This document shows, piece by piece, positions 1,861-17,852 of a DNA stretch of 32,101 bases (position 1 is the stretch's first letter; each line of letters begins with the position of its first letter). Both the position numbers and the translations under genes were made by a program. Location: positions 1-32,101 of IMG/VR virus record IMGVR_UViG_3300044729_001327, one strand, 5' to 3'. Below the pieces are notes generated by a model. The model saw nothing but the letters and a program-made list of their open reading frames with translations, did not search any database and was not told the origin of the DNA. This DNA is from a virus.

Positions 1861-1876
1861 TGTTTCACGTGGAACA
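1861..1876. promoter_or_regulatory. parS-type ParB binding site
   Basis: The 16-mer TGTTTCACGTGGAACA is, on the other strand, TGTTCCACGTGAAACA, which is the consensus chromosomal parS sequence of Bacillus-type ParABS systems. It has the CACGTG core and near-perfect dyad symmetry. It lies in non-coding DNA, 60 bp upstream of the hairpin ending a leftward gene. A chance perfect match in DNA this AT-rich is very unlikely. No ParB gene is seen in the window, so host ParB, or a phage ParB encoded elsewhere, would have to bind. Confidence 0.85.
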
Positions 1877-2249: not shown

Positions 2250-2282
2250 GATAGGGGGTTCGGATTGACCTGCCCTCCACTT

Positions 2283-2345
2283 TCACACTCATAAAATTTA
2301 AAAAAAATTTTAAAAAAAAAATTATATGTATTTAAATATAATTCA
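2283..2345. other. A/T tract, possible unwinding element
   Basis: About 60 bp that are almost pure A and T, with runs of eight to ten A. It lies between a short GC-rich patch (2251-2280) and the repeat array, as expected for an easily melted origin segment. It could also simply be an upstream promoter element. Confidence 0.4.
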
Positions 2346-2380
2346 AACTATATAAGTTTACCTATCATATTTTAGAGTAT

Positions 2381-2389
2381 AAAGGAGGT
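2381..2389 (+). promoter_or_regulatory. orphan strong Shine-Dalgarno sequence
   Basis: AAAGGAGGT lies 9 nt before an ATG at 2399. It is fully complementary to a canonical anti-Shine-Dalgarno. No other gene start I inspected in this window has such a site; they have A-rich leaders instead, as usual in Bacteroidota. Confidence 0.5.
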
Positions 2390-2398
2390 ATTTACTTA

Positions 2399-2422
2399 AT
2401 GGATTATAAATCAGCATTTTAA
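2399..2422 (+). CDS. possible 7-residue leader peptide
   Basis: ATG-GAT-TAT-AAA-TCA-GCA-TTT-TAA encodes MDYKSAF and lies at ideal spacing from the strong ribosome binding site. It runs straight into the repeat array. It may be a regulatory leader peptide, or the remnant of a gene start left by recombination. Confidence 0.25.
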   Translation: MDYKSAF

Positions 2423-2530
2423 CTTGAGATAGTAATACAGCACTATTACTTCAAGTACTACAAGCTATAGTACTGAAGTACTACAAGCTGCATTACTTGA
2501 AGTATCACAAGCTGTAGTACTGGAAAAGTG
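2422..2530. repeat. iteron-like array, five degenerate units about 24 bp apart
   Basis: Units begin at about 2422, 2447, 2471, 2494 and 2518. Each starts with a palindrome of the TACTTGAAGTA type, and the middle units continue with a version of ctACAAGCTgtAGT. Spacing is 23 to 25 bp, a little over two helical turns, so proteins bound to each unit would lie on about the same face of the helix. There are no variable spacers, so this is not a CRISPR array. Iterons binding a replication initiator, or operators of a dimeric regulator, are the likely roles. Confidence 0.65.
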
Positions 2531-2564
2531 TCCACTAATTTATCATGTAAAGTTTTTAAACTAT

Positions 2565-2573
2565 TTATCCACA
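2565..2573 (+). promoter_or_regulatory. perfect DnaA box
   Basis: TTATCCACA is the strongest canonical DnaA box. It lies 35 bp past the repeat array and near the A/T tract, in non-coding DNA between divergent gene blocks. One exact 9-mer could occur by chance in a window this size, but its position makes an origin role credible. Confidence 0.55.
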
Positions 2574-2595
2574 ATATATTAAGTATTATTTTTTA

Positions 2596-2628
2596 TAGTA
2601 ATGAAAAATATTACTTGTAGTAATGAAA
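2596..2628 (+). promoter_or_regulatory. operator-like direct repeat overlapping the first rightward promoter
   Basis: TAGTAATGAAA occurs at 2596-2606 and 2618-2628, exactly 22 bp apart. Between them TTACT-tgt-AGTAA (2611-2623) forms a palindrome that contains the TTG of the promoter's -33 region. A regulator bound here would control the promoter at 2637-2644; the winged-helix gene just downstream is a natural candidate. Confidence 0.4.
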
Positions 2629-2636
2629 TATAGGAT

Positions 2637-2644
2637 TATCTTTG
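2637..2644 (+). promoter_or_regulatory. promoter of the rightward operon, TATCTTTG
   Basis: TATCTTTG matches TAnnTTTG. A TTG at 2615-2617 lies 19 bp upstream, within the usual Bacteroidota -33/-7 spacing. It places the transcript start near 2650, before the ATG at 2675, and would lead into the rightward genes starting there. Confidence 0.6.
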
Positions 2645-2674
2645 TACCATAATTCTGAAGCAAATGAATTTAAA

Positions 2675-2962
2675 ATGTTTAGGTTTGTTAAAATGATGAT
2701 AACTGAAAATAAAACTTATATAGATGAATGTAAAACAATGAGTCAAATTCATGTATATAATGAACTAATTAAAAATATGGATGAAAATCAATTGTGGTTT
2801 TCTAATTCTACTTCTAGGATAAAGATATGTAATAGTTTAAATTTATCAGATGGAAGAGTTAAAGCTATTGTTAAAGAATTAACAGATTTAGGATTATTAC
2901 ATAAAAAAATGAAAGGTATTTATTTAATATCTAAGGTATTTGTATCAACAACAAAAGAATAA
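2675..2962 (+). CDS. winged helix-turn-helix regulator (95 aa)
   Basis: The protein starts MFRFVKMMITENK. A TTG at 2642 would extend the frame, but it lies inside the promoter element, so I chose the ATG at 2675. Residues about 46-74 (SNSTSRIKICNSLNLSDGRV...) read as a helix-turn-helix and 75-90 (HKKMKGIYLISKVFV) as a wing, resembling winged-helix domains of plasmid replication and MarR-like regulators. It is the first gene of the rightward operon, just after the repeat array and operator-like repeats. I infer it binds that region, as autoregulator or replication initiator; which of these is open. Confidence 0.65.
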   Translation: MFRFVKMMITENKTYIDECKTMSQIHVYNELIKNMDENQLWFSNSTSRIKICNSLNLSDGRVKAIVKELTDLGLLHKKMKGIYLISKVFVSTTKE

Positions 2963-2963
2963 T

Positions 2964-3287
2964 ATGGAAAACAATATAATAACAACACAAGAGTCCCAAT
3001 ATAAATTAGTTGGGTTTGTAACTAATCAAAATAAAGAAGCTTTAAGAACAAAAAATAATTATATTATAAGAGTTTTACCAAATGGTGAATTTTTAGCAGT
3101 AGAATTACAAGGAACTCAATTTGAAATGGATATTTTAACTCGTCAATATTCAGTAAATGATAAAGACTATAGTGAAACAGAAGAAGAAATGTTACAACAC
3201 TGTATAGAAATTTTAAAATATACTCCTTATTTAGAAATAGATAAGTTAGAAATAGTAAAATCAAAATATAGTACAAATGAAAACTAA
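2964..3287 (+). CDS. hypothetical protein (107 aa)
   Basis: MENNIITTQESQYKLVGFVTNQNKEALRTK... begins one base after the regulator's stop (TAATATG), so the two are probably coupled. It looks like a small soluble alpha/beta protein with an acidic middle (SETEEEMLQHCIEIL). No motif is recognised. Its position directly after the regulator suggests a co-expressed partner, but the sequence does not show one. Confidence 0.6.
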   Translation: MENNIITTQESQYKLVGFVTNQNKEALRTKNNYIIRVLPNGEFLAVELQGTQFEMDILTRQYSVNDKDYSETEEEMLQHCIEILKYTPYLEIDKLEIVKSKYSTNEN

Positions 3288-3288
3288 T

Positions 3289-3711
3289 ATGAAAGAAGAA
3301 AAAACAAAATCAAAATTATCTATGGGATCAGATGGTATCCTTACAGAAGTTAAGTTTAAAGAAGAAAGTAAATTTGAAGGTATTCCTGACTTAAAAGGAT
3401 TTAAACTACCTGCACCTAACAGGTTGTTACTTAGACCATTACCTCAAGAAGATGTAACTCTACCTTCTGGTGTAATTATTCCTGCATCAGCAGCTGAATA
3501 TAAAGCTGTTGTAGCTTGTTCTCATCATAATTCTCCATATAAAAAAGGAGATGTAGTTGCTGTAGATGTTAATATGTTTCCTAATTTATGGGAAAACGGT
3601 AGAGAAACTCAATATAAAAACATTCCTATAGTGTATATAGAAGGAGAAGAAGTTTTAATTACTTATGAATCACATATAATTGGATGTTATGGACAACGAA
3701 TTGAAGAGTAG
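3289..3711 (+). CDS. GroES-like co-chaperonin (140 aa)
   Basis: After a charged N-terminal extension of about 40 residues comes a Cpn10-like beta-barrel: RLLLRPLP (45-52), a mobile-loop-like segment ending GVIIP (61-65), KKGDVVAVD (85-93) and a final ITYESHIIG. This follows the GroES order (R-x-x-x-x-P, loop with a hydrophobic tripeptide, GD-x-V, ES-x-I). Phage co-chaperonins such as T4 gp31 replace host GroES to fold capsid protein in GroEL, and the same role is inferred here. GroES is about 97 residues; the extension is extra. The start is taken after TAAT; an ATG at 3277 would add four residues. Confidence 0.7.
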   Translation: MKEEKTKSKLSMGSDGILTEVKFKEESKFEGIPDLKGFKLPAPNRLLLRPLPQEDVTLPSGVIIPASAAEYKAVVACSHHNSPYKKGDVVAVDVNMFPNLWENGRETQYKNIPIVYIEGEEVLITYESHIIGCYGQRIEE

Positions 3712-3937
3712 TTTAAATGAAATAGGTATTGAATTGCCTGATGAATTAACTGAAACTTTAGATAAACATTATGCTGTTCCTTATGTTACTTTTGAAGATG
3801 GGACTAGGTTATTTAAATCTTATAATCCTGAAAGACAAGCTATTGCAGGAGAAACATTTGAAGAATATAAGTTTAGAAGAAAGATAATGGTTAAAGGATT
3901 GAAGATTAGGAAACAACAAGGAATTAAAAACAATTAA
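3689..3937 (+). CDS. hypothetical protein (82 aa)
   Basis: MDNELKSSLNEIGIELPDELTETLDKHYAVPYVTF... overlaps the 3' end of the co-chaperonin gene by 23 bp. It has an acidic N-terminal half and a basic C-terminus (FRRKIMVKGLKIRKQQG). It is probably a small helical protein, with no family recognised. The ATG at 3689 was preferred to the TTG at 3680. Confidence 0.55.
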   Translation: MDNELKSSLNEIGIELPDELTETLDKHYAVPYVTFEDGTRLFKSYNPERQAIAGETFEEYKFRRKIMVKGLKIRKQQGIKNN

Positions 3938-3948
3938 AAATAAATAAT

Positions 3949-4275
3949 ATGAATAAAGTAAATTTTGGAACTGCTATTGAAGCAGTAAAACAAGGAAAAT
4001 TAATTGCTAGAGAAGGTTGGAATAGAAAAGGAATGTTTTTATTTCAAAGACCAGAAGATGAATTAGATATAGATATGATTATTAATAAAGTTAAATCTAT
4101 ACCTCAATCAGTAAAAGATTATTATGATGTTAATACTAAACAAAATTTATTACATCCAGTTAAAATTAAATTTACAGCTTATCTTTGTATGAAAGCTGCT
4201 GATAATACAATAGTAAATGGTTGGTTAGCTTCTCAAACTGATATGCTTGCAGAAGATTGGATAATTTTAGAATAA
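3949..4275 (+). CDS. tad2: DUF2829 / Tad2-family anti-Thoeris protein (108 aa)
   Basis: The protein has the DUF2829 signatures: FGTAIEAVKQGKLIAREGWNRKGMF near the N-terminus (6-30) and GWLASQTDMLAEDW at the C-terminus (91-104). In characterised members (Tad2) this small fold forms an oligomer that binds and sequesters the cyclic ADP-ribose-type signal made by the Thoeris sensor, so the effector is not triggered. Length is typical. It sits early in the rightward operon, where an anti-defence gene would be expressed soon after infection. Family membership is clear; which signal it binds is inferred. Confidence 0.85.
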   Translation: MNKVNFGTAIEAVKQGKLIAREGWNRKGMFLFQRPEDELDIDMIINKVKSIPQSVKDYYDVNTKQNLLHPVKIKFTAYLCMKAADNTIVNGWLASQTDMLAEDWIILE

Positions 4276-5834: not shown

Positions 5835-6101
5835 ATGGATTTAAAAAATGAGATTAAACAATTAGCTATTAAACATAATTTAACTCAAAGTGAAGTTAAA
5901 AAGATTTGGCAATCTCAATTTAAATTTACTTCTTACATAATGAGTTTAGATTATAATAGTAAAGAAATTGAAGAAAGAAGAAATATAAAACTTAGAGGGT
6001 TCGGTACTTTTGAATTTTCTAAATATAGAGCTAAAAAAATAACAGATTTAAAACAATTAAAAGATGATAGACAAAGAAACATTTGTAAAAAGATTACCTA
6101 A
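5835..6101 (+). CDS. HU/IHF-like small DNA-binding protein (88 aa)
   Basis: Residues 1-50 are helical (EIKQLAIKHNLTQSEVKKIW) and are followed by IKLRGFGTFEFSKYRAKK (51-68). This matches the HU/IHF pattern: two N-terminal helices, then V-x-L-x-GFGTF-x-V-x-x-R. The long DNA-clamping arm of true HU is short or absent. IHF-like genes are a known feature of crAss-like phages. A DNA-architectural role is inferred. The fit is by eye, and some phage proteins with this pattern are not annotated as HU. Confidence 0.5.
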   Translation: MDLKNEIKQLAIKHNLTQSEVKKIWQSQFKFTSYIMSLDYNSKEIEERRNIKLRGFGTFEFSKYRAKKITDLKQLKDDRQRNICKKIT

Positions 6102-6384
6102 AATTGATACAGAAATATCATTAATAGATATGTGTAACAATACTATTCAAACTTGTAATATAATGGATAATGAAGAGTTAGCTATTTATAAAACAATTAA
6201 AGCTCATGCTGAAAGTATTCTTCTTAGAACTATTGAACAATTAGACAAAGTAACTAATCCTGTAAATTATAATGAGCATACTAGTTTTAAAAATGAAGAT
6301 TTTGAAATAGATAAAGAAACTCAAAAATGGCATAATTCTATAGCTAGACCTTATAAAGAAGAACAATTCAAACGAAGAATCTAA
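6064..6384 (+). CDS. hypothetical helical protein (106 aa)
   Basis: MIDKETFVKRLPKIDTEISLIDMCNNTIQTCNIMDN... is largely helical and charged and has no recognised motif. Its ATG lies 38 bp inside the preceding gene and its last base overlaps the exonuclease start, so it belongs to the packed operon. Its position beside a nuclease gene hints at DNA metabolism, but nothing in the sequence confirms it. Confidence 0.55.
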   Translation: MIDKETFVKRLPKIDTEISLIDMCNNTIQTCNIMDNEELAIYKTIKAHAESILLRTIEQLDKVTNPVNYNEHTSFKNEDFEIDKETQKWHNSIARPYKEEQFKRRI

Positions 6385-7154
6385 TGGTACAATTTAAAAG
6401 GTTATATTTTGATATTGAAGTAAGTCCTAACATAGGATTCTTTTGGCAACCAGGTTATAAACTACAAATTCCTCATGACAATATTATAAAAGAAAGAGCT
6501 ATAATATGTGTATGTTATAAATGGGAACATGAAAAAGAAGTACATTCTTTAGAATGGAAAAAAGGAAATGATAAGCAATTACTTATTAAATTTCTTAAAG
6601 TTCTTAATGAAGCTAATGAAATAGTAGGTCAAAATTCAGATAACTTTGATGTTAAATGGTTAAGAACTAGATGTTTATATCATAAAATAGAAATGATGCC
6701 TACATATTCTTCTGTTGATACTTATAAATTAGCTAAACAATATTTTAGATTTAATTCTAACAAATTAGATTATATGTCTTCTTTCTTAGGATATGGAAAT
6801 AAAATACATACTGAATATGATCTTTGGAAAAAAATAGTTTTAGATAATGATACTAAAGCTATGCAGTCAATGGTTAAATATTGTAAAAAAGATGTTCTTT
6901 TAACTGAAAAAGTTCATCAAGCAATGAAAAACTATACTAAACATAAAACTCATGTTGGAGTAACTATAGGAGAAACTAAAATAGATTGCCCTGAATGTGG
7001 TTCAGACCATATACAATCTAGAGGTTATAGTATAACAGCAGCTGGTACAAAGTTTAAAAGATGTCAATGTCAAAGTTGTGGTAAATGGTATCAAGTTAAT
7101 CTTAATGTTTATAACAAAGCAATATCAATTAAAAATAATAAAGCAATAGTATGA
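6384..7154 (+). CDS. DEDDy 3'-5' exonuclease with C-terminal zinc ribbon (256 aa)
   Basis: This RNase H-like exonuclease has the DEDDy pattern: D10-I-E12 in YFDIEV, GQNSDNFD (82-89) with the second-motif Asn and Asp, and Y166-C-K-K-D170. It resembles the proofreading domain of family B polymerases and YprB-like nucleases, but no polymerase domain follows. Instead the C-terminus has a zinc ribbon, with C202-P-E-C205 and a cluster C227, C229 and C232, probably for DNA or RNA binding. Roles could be end processing, degradation of host DNA, or recombination. Confidence 0.8.
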   Translation: MVQFKRLYFDIEVSPNIGFFWQPGYKLQIPHDNIIKERAIICVCYKWEHEKEVHSLEWKKGNDKQLLIKFLKVLNEANEIVGQNSDNFDVKWLRTRCLYHKIEMMPTYSSVDTYKLAKQYFRFNSNKLDYMSSFLGYGNKIHTEYDLWKKIVLDNDTKAMQSMVKYCKKDVLLTEKVHQAMKNYTKHKTHVGVTIGETKIDCPECGSDHIQSRGYSITAAGTKFKRCQCQSCGKWYQVNLNVYNKAISIKNNKAIV

Positions 7155-7712: not shown

Positions 7713-8335
7713 AATTATTAGCAGTAGATAAAGAAATGAATGTGGAAATAGAACCACATTGTTATGAAATAGAGGAATTTAAGAATGTTATTAAAAGAAT
7801 TAAAAAAACTAAAGGTGATACTGACGGAAGAAAGAAAGAATTGGCTAAAAAAGAACTTGCCTATATTTATCACATGGCTTCTAATGATTCTATTTATGCT
7901 AATTTTTCGGAAAGAGATAGACATTTTAATCTTTTAAATGATGTATTTGGAGATTCTAGTTATAAAATAGATTCTGAAGTTAAATTAGCTATTGAAAAGT
8001 ATAAAGAGTTAAATATTACTCCAGCTTTAAAGCTAATTGTAACACTTACAGAAACTCTTCATAAAACTGATAAAATTATTAAAGCTATTATTGAACAACT
8101 TGAAGAAAATTTAGAAAATAATACTCATAAACAACAATATGTTAAAATGGGTAATGCTGTTAAAACTGGTGTTCAAATAACTGTTGATGATATTAACTGT
8201 TTAATGGATGTAGGCAAAAGAGTACCTTTAATGTTAACTGAATTAGAAGGATTGCAGAAAAAAGTAGAAAAAGAAAAAGAAGAAAAAGCTTCAAGAATAA
8301 AAGGAAAGCTAGAAGTAAGTAATAGAGAAAGATAA
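7709..8335 (+). CDS. conserved-looking protein before TerL, candidate small terminase (208 aa)
   Basis: A helical, highly charged protein: N-terminal region with ELAYIYHMASNDSIYANFSERDRHFN (about 50-75), central helices, and a basic/acidic coiled-coil tail (LQKKVEKEKEEKASRIKGKLE). It overlaps the TerL start by one base, where a small terminase subunit would normally be. crAss-like phages lack an easily recognised TerS, and this position and helical make-up fit that role, but no DNA-binding motif proves it. Confidence 0.5.
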   Translation: MKLLAVDKEMNVEIEPHCYEIEEFKNVIKRIKKTKGDTDGRKKELAKKELAYIYHMASNDSIYANFSERDRHFNLLNDVFGDSSYKIDSEVKLAIEKYKELNITPALKLIVTLTETLHKTDKIIKAIIEQLEENLENNTHKQQYVKMGNAVKTGVQITVDDINCLMDVGKRVPLMLTELEGLQKKVEKEKEEKASRIKGKLEVSNRER

Positions 8336-10353
8336 TGTTAGATATAGGAATTTACGGTATTAATACGGATGAATTTCGTAAACCAGCAATTGAATTTTTA
8401 AAGAATGGTAAGTATATTGGTGCTGAAAAGAACAGCAGAGAATATAATAACTATTGGGATGAACAAGAATACTATTGTAAAAATGGTTATTCTGTTGGTG
8501 GTGTAAAAATTACTGGAGAACACTATTTTTACCTTAATTTCTGTCAAATAGTTTTAAAAAGAGATGTACTTGGTGAAACAACTAAGTCAAATAAAGTTAA
8601 ACAAACTAAATTACTAACATTTCCTGATTTCTGGGATAGTGATTGGTATTATTTTACTGAATGTGAAGCTGCTAAAAATGAAGGCCAGCACGTTATAGTT
8701 TTAAAACCTAGACGTAGAGGGTACTCATTTAAAAATGCAGCTAAAACTGCTTATAATTATAGCTTTTTTAGAAACTCTACTTCACTTATTATAGCTGAAC
8801 AATCAGGTTATGCTGAAGAAACATTGTTAATGGCTGCTGCTTATCTTGATTTTTTAATAAAGCATACAGATTTTGGTAAATCTAGGATAGTAGATAAACC
8901 TAGAAGTCATTTAGAATCAGGATTTAATGAAATATTACCTGATGGTCGAAGAGTAATTTCTGGTTACAGGTCTAAAATACTATCTTTAACTTCTAAAAAC
9001 AATCCTGACGTAGCAAGGGGTAAAGATGCTAACGTAATTCTTTTTGAAGAAGCAGGTTCTTTTACTAATTTAAAATCTACTTACTTAGCTACACTTCCAA
9101 CTGTACAAGCTGGAACAGGTGTATCTGGTCAAATTTTTTGTTATGGAACTGGAGGTGACTTTAGTGGTGGTATTGTAGACTTTGAAGATATGTTCTATAA
9201 TCCTGAGCCTTACAACTTTAGATCTTTTGATAATTCTTGGGAAGAAGGAATGTCAGGAACTAAAATAGGTTATTTTTTACCAGATTATTATTCAAAAGAT
9301 GGTTTTATAGATAATAACGGTAATTCTAAAACTAAAGAAGCATTAGCTTTTATTGAAGCTGAAGTAGAAAGAGTTAAAAGAACTTCTAAAGATTCTAATA
9401 CTATTGATAAGGTATTAAGTGAAAATCCTAGAAAACCATCTGAAGCTTTTATTAAATCTTCAAGTAATATTTTTCCTAAAGCTGAAATACAATCTCAAAT
9501 TAATAGAATTAAATCAGAAAGATCACTTCAATTTTTAGGTACAACAGGTAGATTAGTTGTTAATTCTTCTAATATACTTGAATGGCAACCTACTACTGAT
9601 GTTAAACCTATTTTAAATTTTCCTGTTAAAAAAGATGTAGATGGAGAAGGATGTATTATTGTTTATCAACCTCCTTACAAAAATGGAAATGAAACTCCAC
9701 CTGATTTATATTTTATTTGTCATGACCCTTATGCTACTGATAATGAGAATGGTCAATCTTTAGGAGCTTGTTTTGTTATTAAAAGAATTAATAATTTTAG
9801 TAAACCTTATGATTTAATTGTAGCTGAATATGTAGCTAGACCTAAATCACAAGATGAATATAATTATAACCTGTTTAATTTAGCTAAATATTACAATGCT
9901 AAAATAGTATTTGAAAATGATAGGGGAAATGTTATAGAATATGCTAGAAGAACTCATCAATTAGGATGGCTTCAAGAAGAGCTAGATATTTTTGATAAAG
10001 ATGGAGGATTAAAAGGTAAGTTAAATAGAAAATACGGATATTCAATGTCTAACAAAGAACTTAAAAGACAATGTGCTCTATATTTTAGAGATTGGTTACT
10101 TACTGAAAGAGAAAAAGATATAAATGGAAACGTAGAATTAAATCTACATAAAATTTATTCTATTCCTTTATTAGATGAAATTCTTAAATTTAATTATGAA
10201 GGAAACTTTGATAGAGTCCTTAGTTTATTTGGAGCTATGCTTTATAAACAACAATTAAATTTAAAACCACCTCCTGAACAAGAAGATAAGTATATATACA
10301 ATGATGAGTTCTTTAATAGATTCAAATTTGTTAATAATCAAAACTTATATTAG
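8335..10353 (+). CDS. terL: terminase large subunit (672 aa)
   Basis: This is the DNA-packaging motor. The ATPase domain has a Walker A-like KPRRRGYS (124-131) and Walker B VILFEEAG (234-241, with the catalytic Glu pair). The RNase H-like nuclease domain shows HDPYATD (first acidic residue at about D464) and FENDRGN (526-532). The arginine-rich Walker A variant and the texture of the nuclease part fit crAss-like terminases, and the length is in their range. It cuts concatemers and drives DNA through the portal encoded next. The portal promoter element overlaps its stop codon. Confidence 0.93.
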   Translation: MLDIGIYGINTDEFRKPAIEFLKNGKYIGAEKNSREYNNYWDEQEYYCKNGYSVGGVKITGEHYFYLNFCQIVLKRDVLGETTKSNKVKQTKLLTFPDFWDSDWYYFTECEAAKNEGQHVIVLKPRRRGYSFKNAAKTAYNYSFFRNSTSLIIAEQSGYAEETLLMAAAYLDFLIKHTDFGKSRIVDKPRSHLESGFNEILPDGRRVISGYRSKILSLTSKNNPDVARGKDANVILFEEAGSFTNLKSTYLATLPTVQAGTGVSGQIFCYGTGGDFSGGIVDFEDMFYNPEPYNFRSFDNSWEEGMSGTKIGYFLPDYYSKDGFIDNNGNSKTKEALAFIEAEVERVKRTSKDSNTIDKVLSENPRKPSEAFIKSSSNIFPKAEIQSQINRIKSERSLQFLGTTGRLVVNSSNILEWQPTTDVKPILNFPVKKDVDGEGCIIVYQPPYKNGNETPPDLYFICHDPYATDNENGQSLGACFVIKRINNFSKPYDLIVAEYVARPKSQDEYNYNLFNLAKYYNAKIVFENDRGNVIEYARRTHQLGWLQEELDIFDKDGGLKGKLNRKYGYSMSNKELKRQCALYFRDWLLTEREKDINGNVELNLHKIYSIPLLDEILKFNYEGNFDRVLSLFGAMLYKQQLNLKPPPEQEDKYIYNDEFFNRFKFVNNQNLY

Positions 10354-10358
10354 ATTTG
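10351..10358 (+). promoter_or_regulatory. promoter element TAGATTTG before the portal gene
   Basis: TAGATTTGTAA matches the extended motif TAnnTTTGTA. A TTTG at 10327-10330 lies 20 bp upstream, an ideal -33 element. The element overlaps the TerL stop codon and ends 18 bp before the portal ATG. Confidence 0.65.
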
Positions 10359-10376
10359 TAACTAAAATATTTAAAA

Positions 10377-12707
10377 ATGAGTGAAGTTCAATATATTTCT
10401 GATATACCAAATCAGAACATAAGTTATGCTGCTAAAATAAAAGATGATTATGACTGGGGTAGGAAGACTATGCTTGCTTATATCCAAAGATCTTCATTTT
10501 CTACTAACACTTATAAAATGTGGTTAAAAAAACTATATGACTATTATAATGGACATATAGATATTGAAGACTACAAATTAGTAACTGCCCCTTTTGGTAA
10601 AGAAATTGAAGGAGATTGGGCTGATGTTAAAAACTATCCTATTATTAAACCTAAAGTAGATTTATTAAGAGGAGAATTTAGTAAAAGACCTAAAGACATG
10701 ACAGTATATGTTGTTAACGATGATGTTAATAGCAAAATGCTAGAAGAATTAAACAAACAAATTAACGATAACCTTGAACAACAATTTATAAATACTCTTA
10801 ATGAAGCAGGTGTAGATACTGGTATTCCTTCTCAAGAAATACCTACTCCAGAATATATTAAAGAACAATTTGAATCTAGTTATAGAGATAAAAGAGCTAT
10901 TAACGGTCAACACGCTATTAATTTTATTAGTCAATACAATAAATTAGATGAAGTATTTGATGTTGCTTGGTTTGATTGGATGGTAACTGGAGAAGTATAT
11001 ACTAGAAAAGGAATTGAGCATAGTGAAATATTTGAAGAAGTTGTAAATCCTTTAGATATTGATTATGATAAAGATCCTGATTTACAGTTTATTGAAGATG
11101 GAGATTGGGTAGTAAGAAGAAAGTATATGTTACCTTCTTCTATTATAGATATTTTCTATGATGATTTAACTATGGATGAAATAAATCAAATAGAAACTTT
11201 AGCTATTCAAGGTCCAGCGTTTTCAACTACATCACCTTTTCTTTATGATAGAACAGTTCCTTTTAAAGCTTATTCTAGATTAATAGAAGTTCTTCATGTA
11301 GAATGGAAAAGTAAAAAGAAGATTGGTATTGTAGATTTTGTAGATGAAATGGGGCAACCTCAATCTTTAGAAGTTACTGAAGATTATACAAAAACAGAAG
11401 GGCAAACTCTTAAATGGTATTGGGTAAATGAAGTATGGGAAGGTTATAGAATAGGTACTACTTTATATAAAAGAATTAGAGCTTTACAAAACCAAAGAAA
11501 TTCTATAGATAATCCTTCTAAATGTAAACTATCTTATAATGGTAGGGTATTTTCTAATAGAAATTCAAGAAATATATCTATGGTTACTTTAGGTATTCCA
11601 TATCAAGTACTTTATAATGCTACTATGCACAGGTTAAAACTGGCTATGGCTAAGATGAAAGATGATATGGTTATTTTAGATATTAATCTAAAACCTAAAA
11701 ATTGGGAAATTGATAAGTGGTTATTAATGGCTGATCAAACTTCTATTATGTTTGCTGATTATGCTAAAGAAGGAGTTAATAGAAATAATAATACTCAATC
11801 TAGATTACAAATAGCATCTTCAACTATCCAAGCTTATATAGAATTACTTAGATTTATTAAACAAGAATGGGATGAAGTATGTGGTATTACTAAACAAAGA
11901 GAAGGTCAAATAACTTCTTCTGAAACAGTAGGTGGAGTAGAAAGAGCTGTAGTTCAATCTTCTTTAATTACTGAAGTTTACTTTGCTTACTTTGATCAGT
12001 TTAAAGAAAGAGAATATCAAGGATTACTTGATTGGTCTAAATTAGCTTGGATTAATGGTAAGAAAACTAGCTTTGTAATGCCTGAAACATCTAAAACTAT
12101 TTATATGGATATAGATGGTATAGAACATTCTGAATCGGAATATGGAATATTTGTAACTAAATCTAGTAAACTACAAGAAAAAATTAAAATGGTTCAGTCT
12201 ATAGCTCAACCTTTAGCACAGAATGGTACACCAGGTTCAACTATTGTTGAGATACTTGAATCTGATAATCTTGCCGATATTAAGATGAAGTTAAGAGCAG
12301 CTGAAGTTAAAATGCAAGAATATTCTCAAATGAAAGAAAAAGCTCAACAAGAACATGAGCAGCAAGTAGTTCAAATGCAGAGTGAAATGGCAGATAGAAA
12401 TCAACAATATGTTCTTGAGCAAATTGATAGAAAAGGTGAATGGGATATGAGAAAAACAGAACTTACTGCTTTAGGTATGGATGAAGGAGATGATAATACA
12501 GCTATTCAAAAAGCTATGATTGATGCAGGTCTTAAAGAAAAAGAACTTCAAATTAAAAATAGAGAAATAGATGCTAATCAATTTAATGATGACAAACGAA
12601 TGGCTCATGAATCAAGAATGAAACAAGAAGAAGTTAAAATTAAAGAAAAAGAAATGGCTAACAAATTAGCTATTGCTAAATCAAAACCTAAAACAGCTAC
12701 AAAGTGA
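10377..12707 (+). CDS. portal protein (776 aa)
   Basis: The dodecameric portal forms the DNA channel at one capsid vertex. Support comes from its position directly after TerL, its length, and family-like text such as YPIIKPKVDLLRGEFSKRP near residue 85-100 and a long charged C-terminal helix region (about 635-776, Gln/Glu/Lys-rich). That tail probably makes the barrel or a crown contacting DNA or cargo. A stretch of nearly 80 non-coding bases separates it from the scaffold gene. No truncation is seen. Confidence 0.9.
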   Translation: MSEVQYISDIPNQNISYAAKIKDDYDWGRKTMLAYIQRSSFSTNTYKMWLKKLYDYYNGHIDIEDYKLVTAPFGKEIEGDWADVKNYPIIKPKVDLLRGEFSKRPKDMTVYVVNDDVNSKMLEELNKQINDNLEQQFINTLNEAGVDTGIPSQEIPTPEYIKEQFESSYRDKRAINGQHAINFISQYNKLDEVFDVAWFDWMVTGEVYTRKGIEHSEIFEEVVNPLDIDYDKDPDLQFIEDGDWVVRRKYMLPSSIIDIFYDDLTMDEINQIETLAIQGPAFSTTSPFLYDRTVPFKAYSRLIEVLHVEWKSKKKIGIVDFVDEMGQPQSLEVTEDYTKTEGQTLKWYWVNEVWEGYRIGTTLYKRIRALQNQRNSIDNPSKCKLSYNGRVFSNRNSRNISMVTLGIPYQVLYNATMHRLKLAMAKMKDDMVILDINLKPKNWEIDKWLLMADQTSIMFADYAKEGVNRNNNTQSRLQIASSTIQAYIELLRFIKQEWDEVCGITKQREGQITSSETVGGVERAVVQSSLITEVYFAYFDQFKEREYQGLLDWSKLAWINGKKTSFVMPETSKTIYMDIDGIEHSESEYGIFVTKSSKLQEKIKMVQSIAQPLAQNGTPGSTIVEILESDNLADIKMKLRAAEVKMQEYSQMKEKAQQEHEQQVVQMQSEMADRNQQYVLEQIDRKGEWDMRKTELTALGMDEGDDNTAIQKAMIDAGLKEKELQIKNREIDANQFNDDKRMAHESRMKQEEVKIKEKEMANKLAIAKSKPKTATK

Positions 12708-12767
12708 TATAAATAATTACTCAATTAAAAAGTAGTTTAATAGTATAGAAATAAATTTAATAAATAT

Positions 12768-12775
12768 TAATTTTG
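12768..12775 (+). promoter_or_regulatory. promoter element TAATTTTG before the scaffold and capsid genes
   Basis: TAATTTTG lies 8 bp before the ATG at 12784, the same short distance as the element before 20927. No TTG is seen at the -33 position. It would drive the scaffold and capsid pair, which ends at the hairpin terminator at 15371. Confidence 0.45.
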
Positions 12776-12783
12776 AATAGAAA

Positions 12784-13899
12784 ATGAAAGATGAAAGTAA
12801 AGGAATATCAGCTCCTGACTCAATGGTAGAAGGACTTGATGATGTTTTAAATGATGTACCTAATATTGTTCCTATTGAACAAGAACAACTAGGTGATGAT
12901 GTTAAAACAGATGATGAATCAGTTGAAACTGAAACTAAAAAAAGAGGAAGACCTGCTAAACAAAAAGAAGAAACAAAAGCAGAAGAACCTGAAAAAGTTA
13001 AAGAATCTGTTAAAGAAGATTTTAAAACTGAAGAAGAAGAACCTGAAGAAAATTCAGAAGAGTCTTTAATTAAAACAATAGCTAGTAAATTAGGTATTGA
13101 ATTAGGAGAAGATGATGAATTTGAAGATTCTGAAGAAGGTTTAATAGCTTTTACTGAAAGAGCTGGTAAAGAATTTGCCGATCAACAGTTAAATAACTTC
13201 TTTGAAGAACATCCTGATTTAGGAGAAATTTTTGATTATGTAATGTTAGGTGGTAATGTAGAAGATTATTACAAAGCTATAACACCTGAAATAGATTACA
13301 AATCAATAGATATTGATAATGAATCAGTACAAAAATCTGTTTTAAAAACTCTTTATAGAAATAATGGGTATTCAGATGAACAGATAACAAAGAAACTTGA
13401 TAAATTTGAAATAGCTGGTATATTAAAAGAAGAAGCAGAAGAAGCTTCAATATTATTAGCTAAAGCTCAAGAAAAAGAAAAAGGTGCTCTAATAGAAAAT
13501 CAACGTAGAGAAGCTGAAGCGTCAAGGCAACGTCAAGCTAGAATATGGGGAGAAATGGAGCAAATAGTTAAAAATCGTAAAGTACAAGATTTTGAGATAC
13601 CTGTATCTGAAATTCAATCTACTTTAGATTATATGAAAAAACCTGTTAAAAACGGAATGAGTCAATGGCAAATTGATCAAAACGATTTAACACTTGAAGA
13701 TAGAGCTGCTCTAGCTTTCTTTATGAAGAATAAAGGTAAATTAGGTAAGTATATTAATCAAGCTGCAACTACTCAAAGAGTATCAACTCTAAGAAGTAAG
13801 TTGACAGGAGGTAAAACAACGATGAAAAGTGGAATGGGGAATGATAGCATAAATACTAATGATGATATAGTATTTGATGCAAGACCCACTAAAAAATAA
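12784..13899 (+). CDS. scaffold-like acidic head protein with an AT-hook (371 aa)
   Basis: It sits between portal and major capsid genes, where a scaffold is expected. Residues about 1-100 are extremely acidic and disordered. They contain KKRGRPAK (about 52-60), the core of an AT-hook, which binds the minor groove of AT-rich DNA. The middle is helical and acidic, a coiled-coil stretch (LAKAQEKEKGALIENQRREAEASRQ) follows, and the C-terminus is basic, as in scaffolds that dock on capsid protein. An AT-hook is unexpected for a protein that normally leaves before DNA enters, so it may stay inside as cargo. Confidence 0.65.
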   Translation: MKDESKGISAPDSMVEGLDDVLNDVPNIVPIEQEQLGDDVKTDDESVETETKKRGRPAKQKEETKAEEPEKVKESVKEDFKTEEEEPEENSEESLIKTIASKLGIELGEDDEFEDSEEGLIAFTERAGKEFADQQLNNFFEEHPDLGEIFDYVMLGGNVEDYYKAITPEIDYKSIDIDNESVQKSVLKTLYRNNGYSDEQITKKLDKFEIAGILKEEAEEASILLAKAQEKEKGALIENQRREAEASRQRQARIWGEMEQIVKNRKVQDFEIPVSEIQSTLDYMKKPVKNGMSQWQIDQNDLTLEDRAALAFFMKNKGKLGKYINQAATTQRVSTLRSKLTGGKTTMKSGMGNDSINTNDDIVFDARPTKK

Positions 13900-13926: not shown

Positions 13927-15360
13927 ATGGCTCAATTAGTATTCGACCAACAATGGAACGAACAAATGAAAACCAACGATACGTCTTTAGCAAAGATGTT
14001 GATGTTGAAACCTGACCAATTATCTCCAGTATTAACATATCTTATGGGAGATGAAAGTCAAAGATTTCCTCTCATGTACCTTTCTGAAGGTATGAAAGCA
14101 ATGAAAGAAATAGAAGGTGATGAGTATGAATATGACGTAATTGGACGTCTATTCAAAGCTATTCCTTTAGCAGCAACTGTATCAACTGCAAATGCTGGTA
14201 TCGGTTACTCTACTTTTACTATTCAATTTCAAGAAAAATTATTTCCTAAAGATTACACAATCTTAACTCCTAATGGTTATCAATTAACAGTAGTAGGTGA
14301 ACCTTACCAAACAAATGGTTTGTGGAGCTTTCCTGTAAAATTAGTAGCTAAAAACAGTTCACAGTTTTTACCTTCTTCTGAATTAACTGCTGGTAACTTG
14401 TTCTCATTAGGTTGGGCAGCTGTAGCATCATTTGGTTCAACTGGTAATGAGTCAGTTTCTACTGCTCCTTATAAAGTGAGAGGTGATATTACTACTCTTC
14501 GTAAATCTTACAAATGGGAAGGTAATGTAAAATATCGTTCTACTGTAACTGTAAAACTTCCTACTTCTGGTGGTGGAGAAAAATCTTTATGGTGGCCGTT
14601 TGAAGAATACCAACACAACTTGTCATTCCGTCAAGAATGTGAAACTAACTATTGGTATTCAACTTCAAATCGTGATGCTTCAGGTATTGTTAATGAAAGA
14701 GATGTTAATGGTAATCCTATTGTTCGTGGTTCAGGTATTCTTGAGCAAATAATGAACAAAGATACTTTTGGTACTTTGACAGTAGATAAAATTCATCAAA
14801 CAATTCGTAGTACTTTCTACGGTATGTCTGATGCAAGTAATAAAGTTGTAACAATCTTTACTGGTATTGGTGGTCGTCAAGAATTTGATGATGCTATGAA
14901 AGCAGATTTAGCAGCTAGAAGTTACATTAAATTAACTGATGCTCAATTCGTTACTGGTTCTGGTTATTCATTAGCTTTAGGTGGATACTTTGATATGTAT
15001 CAGCACGTTGATGGTTACAAAATTATAATTAAAACTGCATCTATTTTTGATAATGGACCTCAAGCTTTAGCGTCACCTAGACATCCTAAAACTGGTTTAC
15101 CATTAGAATCACATAGATTAGTATTTGTTGATACATCTACTTATAACGGTGAAAACAACCTTGTAATGGTAACTAAAAAAGGCCGTTCAATGGTAAGAGC
15201 AGTTGTTAAAGGTATGAATGAAGTATCAGCTAATTTAACTGGTAATGATTCAATTGCAACTGATAAAGATGCAAGTTCAATTCACTTTATGAAAGCAGGT
15301 CAAGTAGTTCTTAGACGTTTCAATACTTCTATCGACCTACGTTGTGTAGCTGGATTGTAG
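13927..15360 (+). CDS. major capsid protein (477 aa)
   Basis: This is the HK97-fold shell protein, judged by position, length close to known crAss-like capsid proteins and family-like text (LVMVTKKGRSMVRAVVKGMNE near the C-terminus). The gene has an A-rich leader (acaaatataaataaac) and a higher share of C-ending codons (ttc, tac, aac) than its neighbours, as in strongly expressed genes. It is followed at once by a perfect hairpin terminator. The encoded GroES-like protein may help it fold. Confidence 0.88.
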   Translation: MAQLVFDQQWNEQMKTNDTSLAKMLMLKPDQLSPVLTYLMGDESQRFPLMYLSEGMKAMKEIEGDEYEYDVIGRLFKAIPLAATVSTANAGIGYSTFTIQFQEKLFPKDYTILTPNGYQLTVVGEPYQTNGLWSFPVKLVAKNSSQFLPSSELTAGNLFSLGWAAVASFGSTGNESVSTAPYKVRGDITTLRKSYKWEGNVKYRSTVTVKLPTSGGGEKSLWWPFEEYQHNLSFRQECETNYWYSTSNRDASGIVNERDVNGNPIVRGSGILEQIMNKDTFGTLTVDKIHQTIRSTFYGMSDASNKVVTIFTGIGGRQEFDDAMKADLAARSYIKLTDAQFVTGSGYSLALGGYFDMYQHVDGYKIIIKTASIFDNGPQALASPRHPKTGLPLESHRLVFVDTSTYNGENNLVMVTKKGRSMVRAVVKGMNEVSANLTGNDSIATDKDASSIHFMKAGQVVLRRFNTSIDLRCVAGL

Positions 15361-16406: not shown

Positions 16407-17852
16407 ATGAGTAATATAAAAGAATGGCATATATTGTTGGACCAAGAATTAAATAAAGTAAATTCTGCTTTATATGATATTCTGACTCCTCAAGAAAAAG
16501 ACATAGCTTTCAATAAAAATATTGAAAAGTTTGTTAAACAAAGATATGGTGCTAATTCTAATGCTAAACAAAAAGGTTTTGAGCAATCTCAAAAAAGAAT
16601 AGATGATTTAAGAGAATTGGTTAAAATTAATTATAGTTTAACTGCTTATAAACCTAGTTTTGATGATATTGATTTTAATTCAATGGTAAAAGCAGAACTT
16701 CCTTCTGATTATTGTTTATCAATAAACACAAGAAGTCAAATTAGTTATGTTGATTGTGGAACTTTTACTTATCAAGAAGTTCCTAAAAACGAATACTATT
16801 CTGTATTACCTGTTAGTTCTTTTGTTAATACAAATTGGGGCACAACTAGATTAAAAACATTTTTATATAAAAATCCAGATGTTTATTATCTTGTTTCAGC
16901 AGCTGGTCCAGGAGCTCCAGGTTATAATATTTTTTATATGACAACTAATTTAGCTGCTATTAATTGGAGTGTTAATGACCCAATTGTTTTTGTTACAAAA
17001 GGAGGAACCGATTCAAACATTCAAATAGGAACAACTTATTATATAAAAACTATTACTTCTTCTAGTATGACTATTTCTGCTAGCCTCGTTGGAGGAGTTG
17101 CAGGTCCAGAATTTCAACTTAATGGTACTTTAACAAATACAACTGGAATTAAAAATTTAGGTGCAGATCCATCAAATGTAGATGTAGTAATAGGTACAGA
17201 TTTAGTAATGACTAATGCTTCAAATTATACAACTGAAGATAATAGTTATATGACTTCTGTAATTACAGATTTCTTAAAAAATAGTTGGAATGGTTTTTCA
17301 GGTACAGTAAATTCTGTAACATATAATTATAAATCTAAAGATTTTGAATTTTATTTTGAAAGATATAAAGATTTGTATTTTGCTAATAGTATTATTATAG
17401 TATATAAAGGAAGTAATAGTGTTATACCAACTTGGAGTTATTCAACTAATTCAGGTTCTACTTATACAGAATTAACTAATAATACTTATGCACTAACAAC
17501 GTATGTTTTAGGTGGAACAAATCAAACTACATCTAATAAACAAGTACAAGAAGATGATTTGTTTGCTTTGCAACAAGACCCTTTTAATGCTACTTATTAT
17601 GAGTTTCCTTTATGTTTTTTTAGTGGCAATGAATTAAACACTTATATTAATATAAATGATTTTGTTGTAAATAAAACTATTTTGTCTTACATTCGTAAAC
17701 CAAAAACTGTATCTTATTATTTAGATATAAATTGTGATTTACCTGAATTTACTCATAATGAAATATTAAGTATGACAGCTTCGTATTTACTTGAAGAGTT
17801 TGAAGCAGGAAGATATAAAACACATCAAGAAACAGTAATAACAAATGAATAA
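16407..17852 (+). CDS. virion structural protein (481 aa)
   Basis: The N-terminal 80 residues are helical and charged (FNKNIEKFVKQRYGANSN, then FEQSQKRIDDLREL). A long Ser/Thr/Asn/Tyr-rich beta region fills about 110-400, and a helical acidic C-terminus follows (HNEILSMTASYLLEEFEAGRY). A fold with helical ends around a beta domain suits a head-tail connector or ring protein of the crAss-like tail. Place and make-up are observed; the exact position in the virion is inferred. Confidence 0.65.
   Translation: MSNIKEWHILLDQELNKVNSALYDILTPQEKDIAFNKNIEKFVKQRYGANSNAKQKGFEQSQKRIDDLRELVKINYSLTAYKPSFDDIDFNSMVKAELPSDYCLSINTRSQISYVDCGTFTYQEVPKNEYYSVLPVSSFVNTNWGTTRLKTFLYKNPDVYYLVSAAGPGAPGYNIFYMTTNLAAINWSVNDPIVFVTKGGTDSNIQIGTTYYIKTITSSSMTISASLVGGVAGPEFQLNGTLTNTTGIKNLGADPSNVDVVIGTDLVMTNASNYTTEDNSYMTSVITDFLKNSWNGFSGTVNSVTYNYKSKDFEFYFERYKDLYFANSIIIVYKGSNSVIPTWSYSTNSGSTYTELTNNTYALTTYVLGGTNQTTSNKQVQEDDLFALQQDPFNATYYEFPLCFFSGNELNTYININDFVVNKTILSYIRKPKTVSYYLDINCDLPEFTHNEILSMTASYLLEEFEAGRYKTHQETVITNE

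Follow-up and report, generated by a model that had tools for sequence, protein, structure and literature searches.

The window, i.e., the whole 32,101-bp stretch of phage DNA analyzed here, carries in a non-coding gap one exact copy of the 16-bp parS site typical of bacterial chromosomes, identical to sites present in the chromosomes of Bacteroidota, and no ParB gene was detected along with it. The observation is correct and is not due to chance. Orphan sites of this kind were found to recur in many phages unrelated to one another, a pattern suggesting that the ParB protein of the host is borrowed, and this recurrence is a more important result than the single site in the window. We would give an even chance to the broader proposal that unrelated phages carry orphan chromosome-type parS sites as part of a general strategy in which host ParB, and through it ParA and SMC, is recruited for segregation, positioning, or compaction of their genomes. 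If this is true, phages would depend on the bacterial centromere in a way so far unrecognized, comparable to the use some phages make of the host XerCD/dif system. Phages with ParABS systems of their own are known, but in the literature searched, which reached few subscription papers and no preprints, no precedent was found for a phage carrying the host-type parS by itself.

The parS site and the neighboring origin-like region

The parS site TGTTTCACGTGGAACA (reverse complement TGTTCCACGTGAAACA) occupies positions 1861–1876 of the plus strand. It is palindromic at 14 of its 16 positions and matches the 16-bp consensus TGTTYCACGTGRAACA exactly; the preliminary description, which had read it as the exact reverse complement of the consensus, was confirmed on this point, and no other copy with zero or one mismatch occurs in the window. 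When up to three mismatches were allowed, three matches were observed versus 0.13 expected from dinucleotide shuffles of the window, two of the three being a single palindromic site counted on both strands. The chance of an exact copy occurring in any of the four strand-forms of parS was estimated at 5e-6 per window, based on a first-order Markov model of this AT-rich sequence. A two-mismatch copy at 17504–17519 was attributed to chance, since it lies inside an ORF (16407–17852), is common to the related record L004, and shows a changed core.

A comparison with host-type parS, which had been proposed as a check, was made at the level of the phylum. The exact 16-mer was present in 41 of the 148 Bacteroidota genomes scanned (sampled from the phylum to which an Aequorivita genome belongs) versus none of the 148 in the case of the reversed control, and a site with at most one mismatch was present in 53 of 61 Bacteroidota genomes, typically in 1–3 copies located within a few kb; almost nothing was obtained with the reversed control. 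These exact and near-exact matches indicate that what the phage carries is an ordinary Bacteroidota parS, and the earlier suggestion that host ParB could use it is strongly supported by this identity in sequence. The window site resembles the centromere of the chromosomal ParABS systems of Bacillus, Pseudomonas, and Bacteroidota in its 16-bp sequence, its non-coding location, the proximity of an origin-like region, and the number of copies (1–3 per replicon), but differs from it in sitting on a virus and in having neither parA nor parB encoded in the same fragment. The absence of parB from the window, which had also been noted beforehand, held when the TIGR00180 profile was searched, no match being obtained in the 32-kb fragment.

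Non-coding DNA makes up only 6% of the window, and the location of the site in such DNA, as originally claimed, was verified: it lies in a 320-bp gap (1614–1933), the second largest in the window, between two minus-strand ORFs encoding 149 aa (1164–1613, downstream of the gap) and 94 aa (1934–2218, upstream), for neither of which any relatives were found among phages or viral contigs or by profile searches. The gap contains an imperfect 17-bp inverted repeat with arms at 1774–1790 and 1839–1855 (16 of 17 positions paired), forming a cruciform-like element of 82 bp (1774–1855) which includes a smaller hairpin, folds with about −20 kcal/mol, and ends 5 bp left of parS. A perfect 12-bp stem with a 4-nt loop (1924–1951) spans the 3' end of the minus-strand ORF 1934–2218 and is terminator-like, without a clear T run. 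Scans for tRNAs, Rfam families, sigma-70 elements, and terminators around parS yielded nothing, and no Bacteroidota-type promoter was found in the gap.

The preliminary description further placed the site next to an origin-like region. The features behind this label were recovered, namely a skew switch, a DnaA box, repeats, and diverging gene blocks, and the label itself, applied here to positions 2281–2650 on the basis of these signals, is reasonable but unproven. This region is conserved in L004 and comprises an A/T-rich stretch, three 22-nt direct repeats (2453–2521), and a perfect DnaA box TTATCCACA (2565–2573). The GC skew, negative to the left, turns positive at about 2.0–2.5 kb, and a leftward block of small ORFs without relatives meets the rightward structural block at about 2.2–2.67 kb, the two blocks diverging from there. 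A putative Bacteroidota-type promoter for the rightward block, TTG-N19-TATCTTTG, was located at 2615–2644 on the plus strand by consensus match. The first gene of this block (2675–2962, plus strand) encodes a small winged-helix protein recognized by weak HTH matches, which is a candidate replication or regulatory protein; its predicted structure had a pLDDT of 39 and was not used. The parS site is situated 0.4–0.7 kb left of the skew switch, the DnaA box, and the repeat cluster. Chromosomal parS sites likewise lie near oriC.

Relationship to crAss-like phages

The window corresponds to an IMG/VR record with a GC content of 0.284; since this record is linear and 32,101 bp long, most of the phage genome is missing from it, the full genome being probably about 90–100 kb in size, as in the named relatives. 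The genes encoding a crAss-like terminase large subunit (TerL, phrog_6681, 8335–10353, assigned by profile search and TerL comparison), a portal protein (phrog_6547, 10377–12707), and a major head protein (MCP, phrog_11589, 13927–15360), the last two assigned by profile search, are collinear on the plus strand, which places the phage among the crAss-like phages (Crassvirales). Its TerL shares 34–38% identity with those of named crAss-like phages, among them Flavobacterium phages and gut Suoliviridae with genomes of about 90–100 kb, and the recorded hosts of the named crAss-like phages are Bacteroidota. TerL relatives were also sought in bacterial genomes as a clue to the host, and none were found there. 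The exonuclease gene at 6384–6775 shows 68% nucleotide identity to Flavobacterium phages of strains LMO6/LMO9, which gives a hint of a Flavobacterium-like host.

Conservation of the 16-mer in close relatives, which the preliminary description had proposed looking for, was not observed. A parS site with at most one mismatch occurs in none of the 78 other crAss-like records (28 TerL relatives and 50 further records, ten being named genomes). L004 is the only close relative with overlapping DNA: it is 93% identical to the window over positions 2268–3938, and left of position 2268 it carries 612 bp of unrelated DNA without parS; the other 77 records likewise have no such site. The site is thus accessory and not a core crAss feature, and the lack of a site with at most one mismatch in every crAss-like relative checked gives no sign of selection on parS in this lineage. 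Most of the 612 bp of L004 (its positions 1–612) is non-coding; a CCACGCGTGG palindrome and short repeats occur there, and this locus may harbor another cis element in L004.

Searches with the left 2.27 kb of the window uncovered no relatives among phages or, apart from L004 with its divergent left part, among viral contigs; in the 148 Bacteroidota genomes, the sole matches were AT-rich scraps of at most 60 bp. The GC3 of the minus-strand cassette flanking parS is 0.206 versus 0.115 in the right block. This left cassette may be a recent acquisition, an assembly join being less likely; apart from the GC3 and the missing relatives, nothing points to a chimeric join.

Orphan parS sites in other phages

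The exact parS 16-mer was found in at least 120 viral-contig stretches, a lower bound, versus 1 and 17 in the case of two control 16-mers, for which the scans were complete. Among the matches listed, 37 of 134 parS sites were intergenic versus 7.9% of random positions (p ~1e-11), and at GC below 0.5, where gene calling is safer, this was the case for 27 of the 74 loci listed versus 10%. The second control 16-mer keeps CACGTG, is itself palindromic, and is often intergenic (7/17), which makes it a conservative and not a neutral control, and the intergenic enrichment is accordingly supportive and not decisive. Several of the sites are located in gaps adjoining terminase, capsid, tail, tape-measure, or endolysin genes, which indicates that, in those contigs, they belong to phage DNA and do not result from host contamination. 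Contamination may explain some of the viral-contig matches, but as a general account it fails for the sites between structural genes and for the phage isolate described below.

In about 10 pairs of non-identical phages showing 64–87% identity when the flanking DNA (±1 kb) was aligned, such as L107/L115, L047/L149, L071/L113, L079/L106, and L056/L109, parS occupies a homologous place; this test is suggestive, parS itself having served to find the pairs and some of the sites being in coding sequence. The conserved sites in the L041 family and in L118/L142 are inside coding sequence, where protein conservation could also preserve them. No match to the TIGR00180 ParB profile was obtained in 45 of 50 parS-bearing viral records, only one of the 50 exceeding the curated cut-off, and no ParB was found in 18 viral contigs of a second set (two of them common to the first set); this lack of ParB carries less weight as a result, many of the parS-bearing records being fragments.

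The Pelagibacter (SAR11) phage HTVC027P, an isolate reached via terminase similarity and hence independently of the parS search, carries a site matching parS at 15 of 16 positions (CGTTTCACGTGAAACA), which is intergenic (MN698241.1, 16412–16427; L391, 2413–2428). As in the window, this is an intergenic orphan site, no ParB having been found in HTVC027P; the two phages differ in that HTVC027P belongs to an unrelated lineage with a different host and its site departs from that of the window at one or two positions. Three named relatives of HTVC027P have no parS site.

Two viral contigs carry several parS-type sites each. L074 (IMGVR_UViG_3300037518_000322), a GC-rich record of 116 kb, has 12 of them within 5 kb (8906–13863), 11 of the 12 being TGTTTCACGTGGAACA and many lying just past stop codons; no ParB match was obtained in the whole record, the only similarity of which to named phages is a 102-bp match to Streptomyces phage Yara. 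The 77-kb contig L037 has three parS-type sites in one gap (6637–6894), two of which are in direct tandem; this gap adjoins an ATPase-like gene, and no ParB match was found.

Possible roles of the site and other genes in the window

Judging from its base sequence, the window site is likely to be bound by ParB, and we hold this view with good confidence. The available text of one report describes ParB as loading on the 16-bp parS in the form of a CTP-dependent clamp and acting as an adaptor to ParA or Smc (PMC8494293). After infection, the host ParB would recognize the phage parS, load there as such a clamp, and spread over the origin-proximal phage DNA, and a low-copy circular or episomal form of this DNA would become attached to the host ParA/SMC segregation machinery. 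We infer that the phage DNA could in this way be kept near the nucleoid or the origin and be inherited by both daughter cells in a carrier or phage-plasmid state. Given that the site lies close to the origin-like region and that crAssphage has been suggested to be a phage-plasmid, our best guess, and the likeliest use, is that an episomal phage genome is partitioned or tethered through it, a reading to be held tentatively, at slightly less than an even chance. In Pseudomonas, a single parS can suffice for segregation, according to the part of the source available (PMC4368675).

The fact that crAssphage (Carjivirus communis), which belongs to the same order, has been called a putative phage-plasmid and credited with extrachromosomal persistence provides a parallel; in the available text, this proposal rests on repL and plasmid genes, and a host-type parS is not mentioned there (PMC11652158), whereas no repL was found in the window. 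Neither an integrase nor RepL nor any other plasmid-maintenance gene was identified in the 32-kb fragment. The mycobacteriophage RedRock and P1 also carry a phage-borne partition centromere near their replication region, but these phages encode their own ParA and ParB and have dedicated parS repeats (PMC7157519), whereas the window has a host-type site and no match to TIGR00180 that would point to a ParB of the RedRock/P1 kind.

The main rival to partition is local silencing or condensation, ParB titration being a lesser one. ParB spreading from the site might repress or time the leftward early operon, or the site might load SMC so that the replicated phage DNA is compacted before packaging. 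The parS lies about 250 bp upstream of the minus-strand ORF 1164–1613 in a gap with hairpins of its own, the sites of other phages often adjoin terminase or structural genes, and the isolate HTVC027P has no evident plasmid biology; in the available parts of the sources, the ParB of P. aeruginosa is reported to repress promoters adjoining parS3 and parS4 (PMC5521831) and ParB to connect parS to Smc (PMC8494293). Such a local effect is nevertheless somewhat unlikely, given that the gap has no recognizable Bacteroidota-type promoter and that partition accounts no less well for a single site in the vicinity of an origin-like region. If phage parS copies were instead amplified so as to strip ParB from the host sites and disable host segregation, a few dozen of them would outnumber the 1–3 sites of a Bacteroidota chromosome, and the array of 12 sites in L074 would suit this purpose; with one parS per genome, however, the phage would titrate ParB weakly early in infection, and the host chromosome is in any case usually destroyed by lytic phages, which makes a decoy quite improbable.

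That the site is not a phage adaptation at all, and reflects a captured host fragment, an assembly join, or chance, would fit the lack of relatives of the left 2.27 kb, its deviating GC3, and the absence of the site from the crAss relatives. This we regard as unlikely, since the chance expectation is so low, the opposite gene orientation of the left block matches the skew switch, no host gene is recognizable in that block, and orphan parS sites are over-represented in phages generally. A phage ParB encoded in the missing two thirds of the genome is conceivable in a fragment of this kind, and a parABS system belonging to the phage itself is known from RedRock, for example (PMC7157519). When 39 crAss-like records, including ten named genomes, were searched for ParB_N, none gave a match above the family cut-off, which makes a phage-encoded ParB unlikely, and the parS of RedRock is an unrelated repeat array and not the chromosomal 16-mer (PMC7157519); we consider a complete parABS of the phage's own very improbable. 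Returning to partition through host ParB, if this protein does load at the site, it would provide a cheap means of persistence for non-integrating phages such as the crAss-like viruses and would bear on how these phages stay with their hosts, and ParB and SMC would become host factors in infection.

Several other genes in the window gave profile or nucleotide matches. The gene at 3949–4275 encodes a protein of the DUF2829 type, matching phrog_1048 and phrog_872 and, at the nucleotide level, DUF2829 genes; DUF2829 presumably takes in the Tad2 anti-Thoeris family, in which case this may be a counter-defense gene. Weak matches to a GroES-like co-chaperonin were obtained at 3277–3711, and a GroES is also annotated near the portal gene in phage DSL-LC04. 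An HU-like DNA-binding protein, matching PF00216 above the cut-off, is encoded at 5835–6101.
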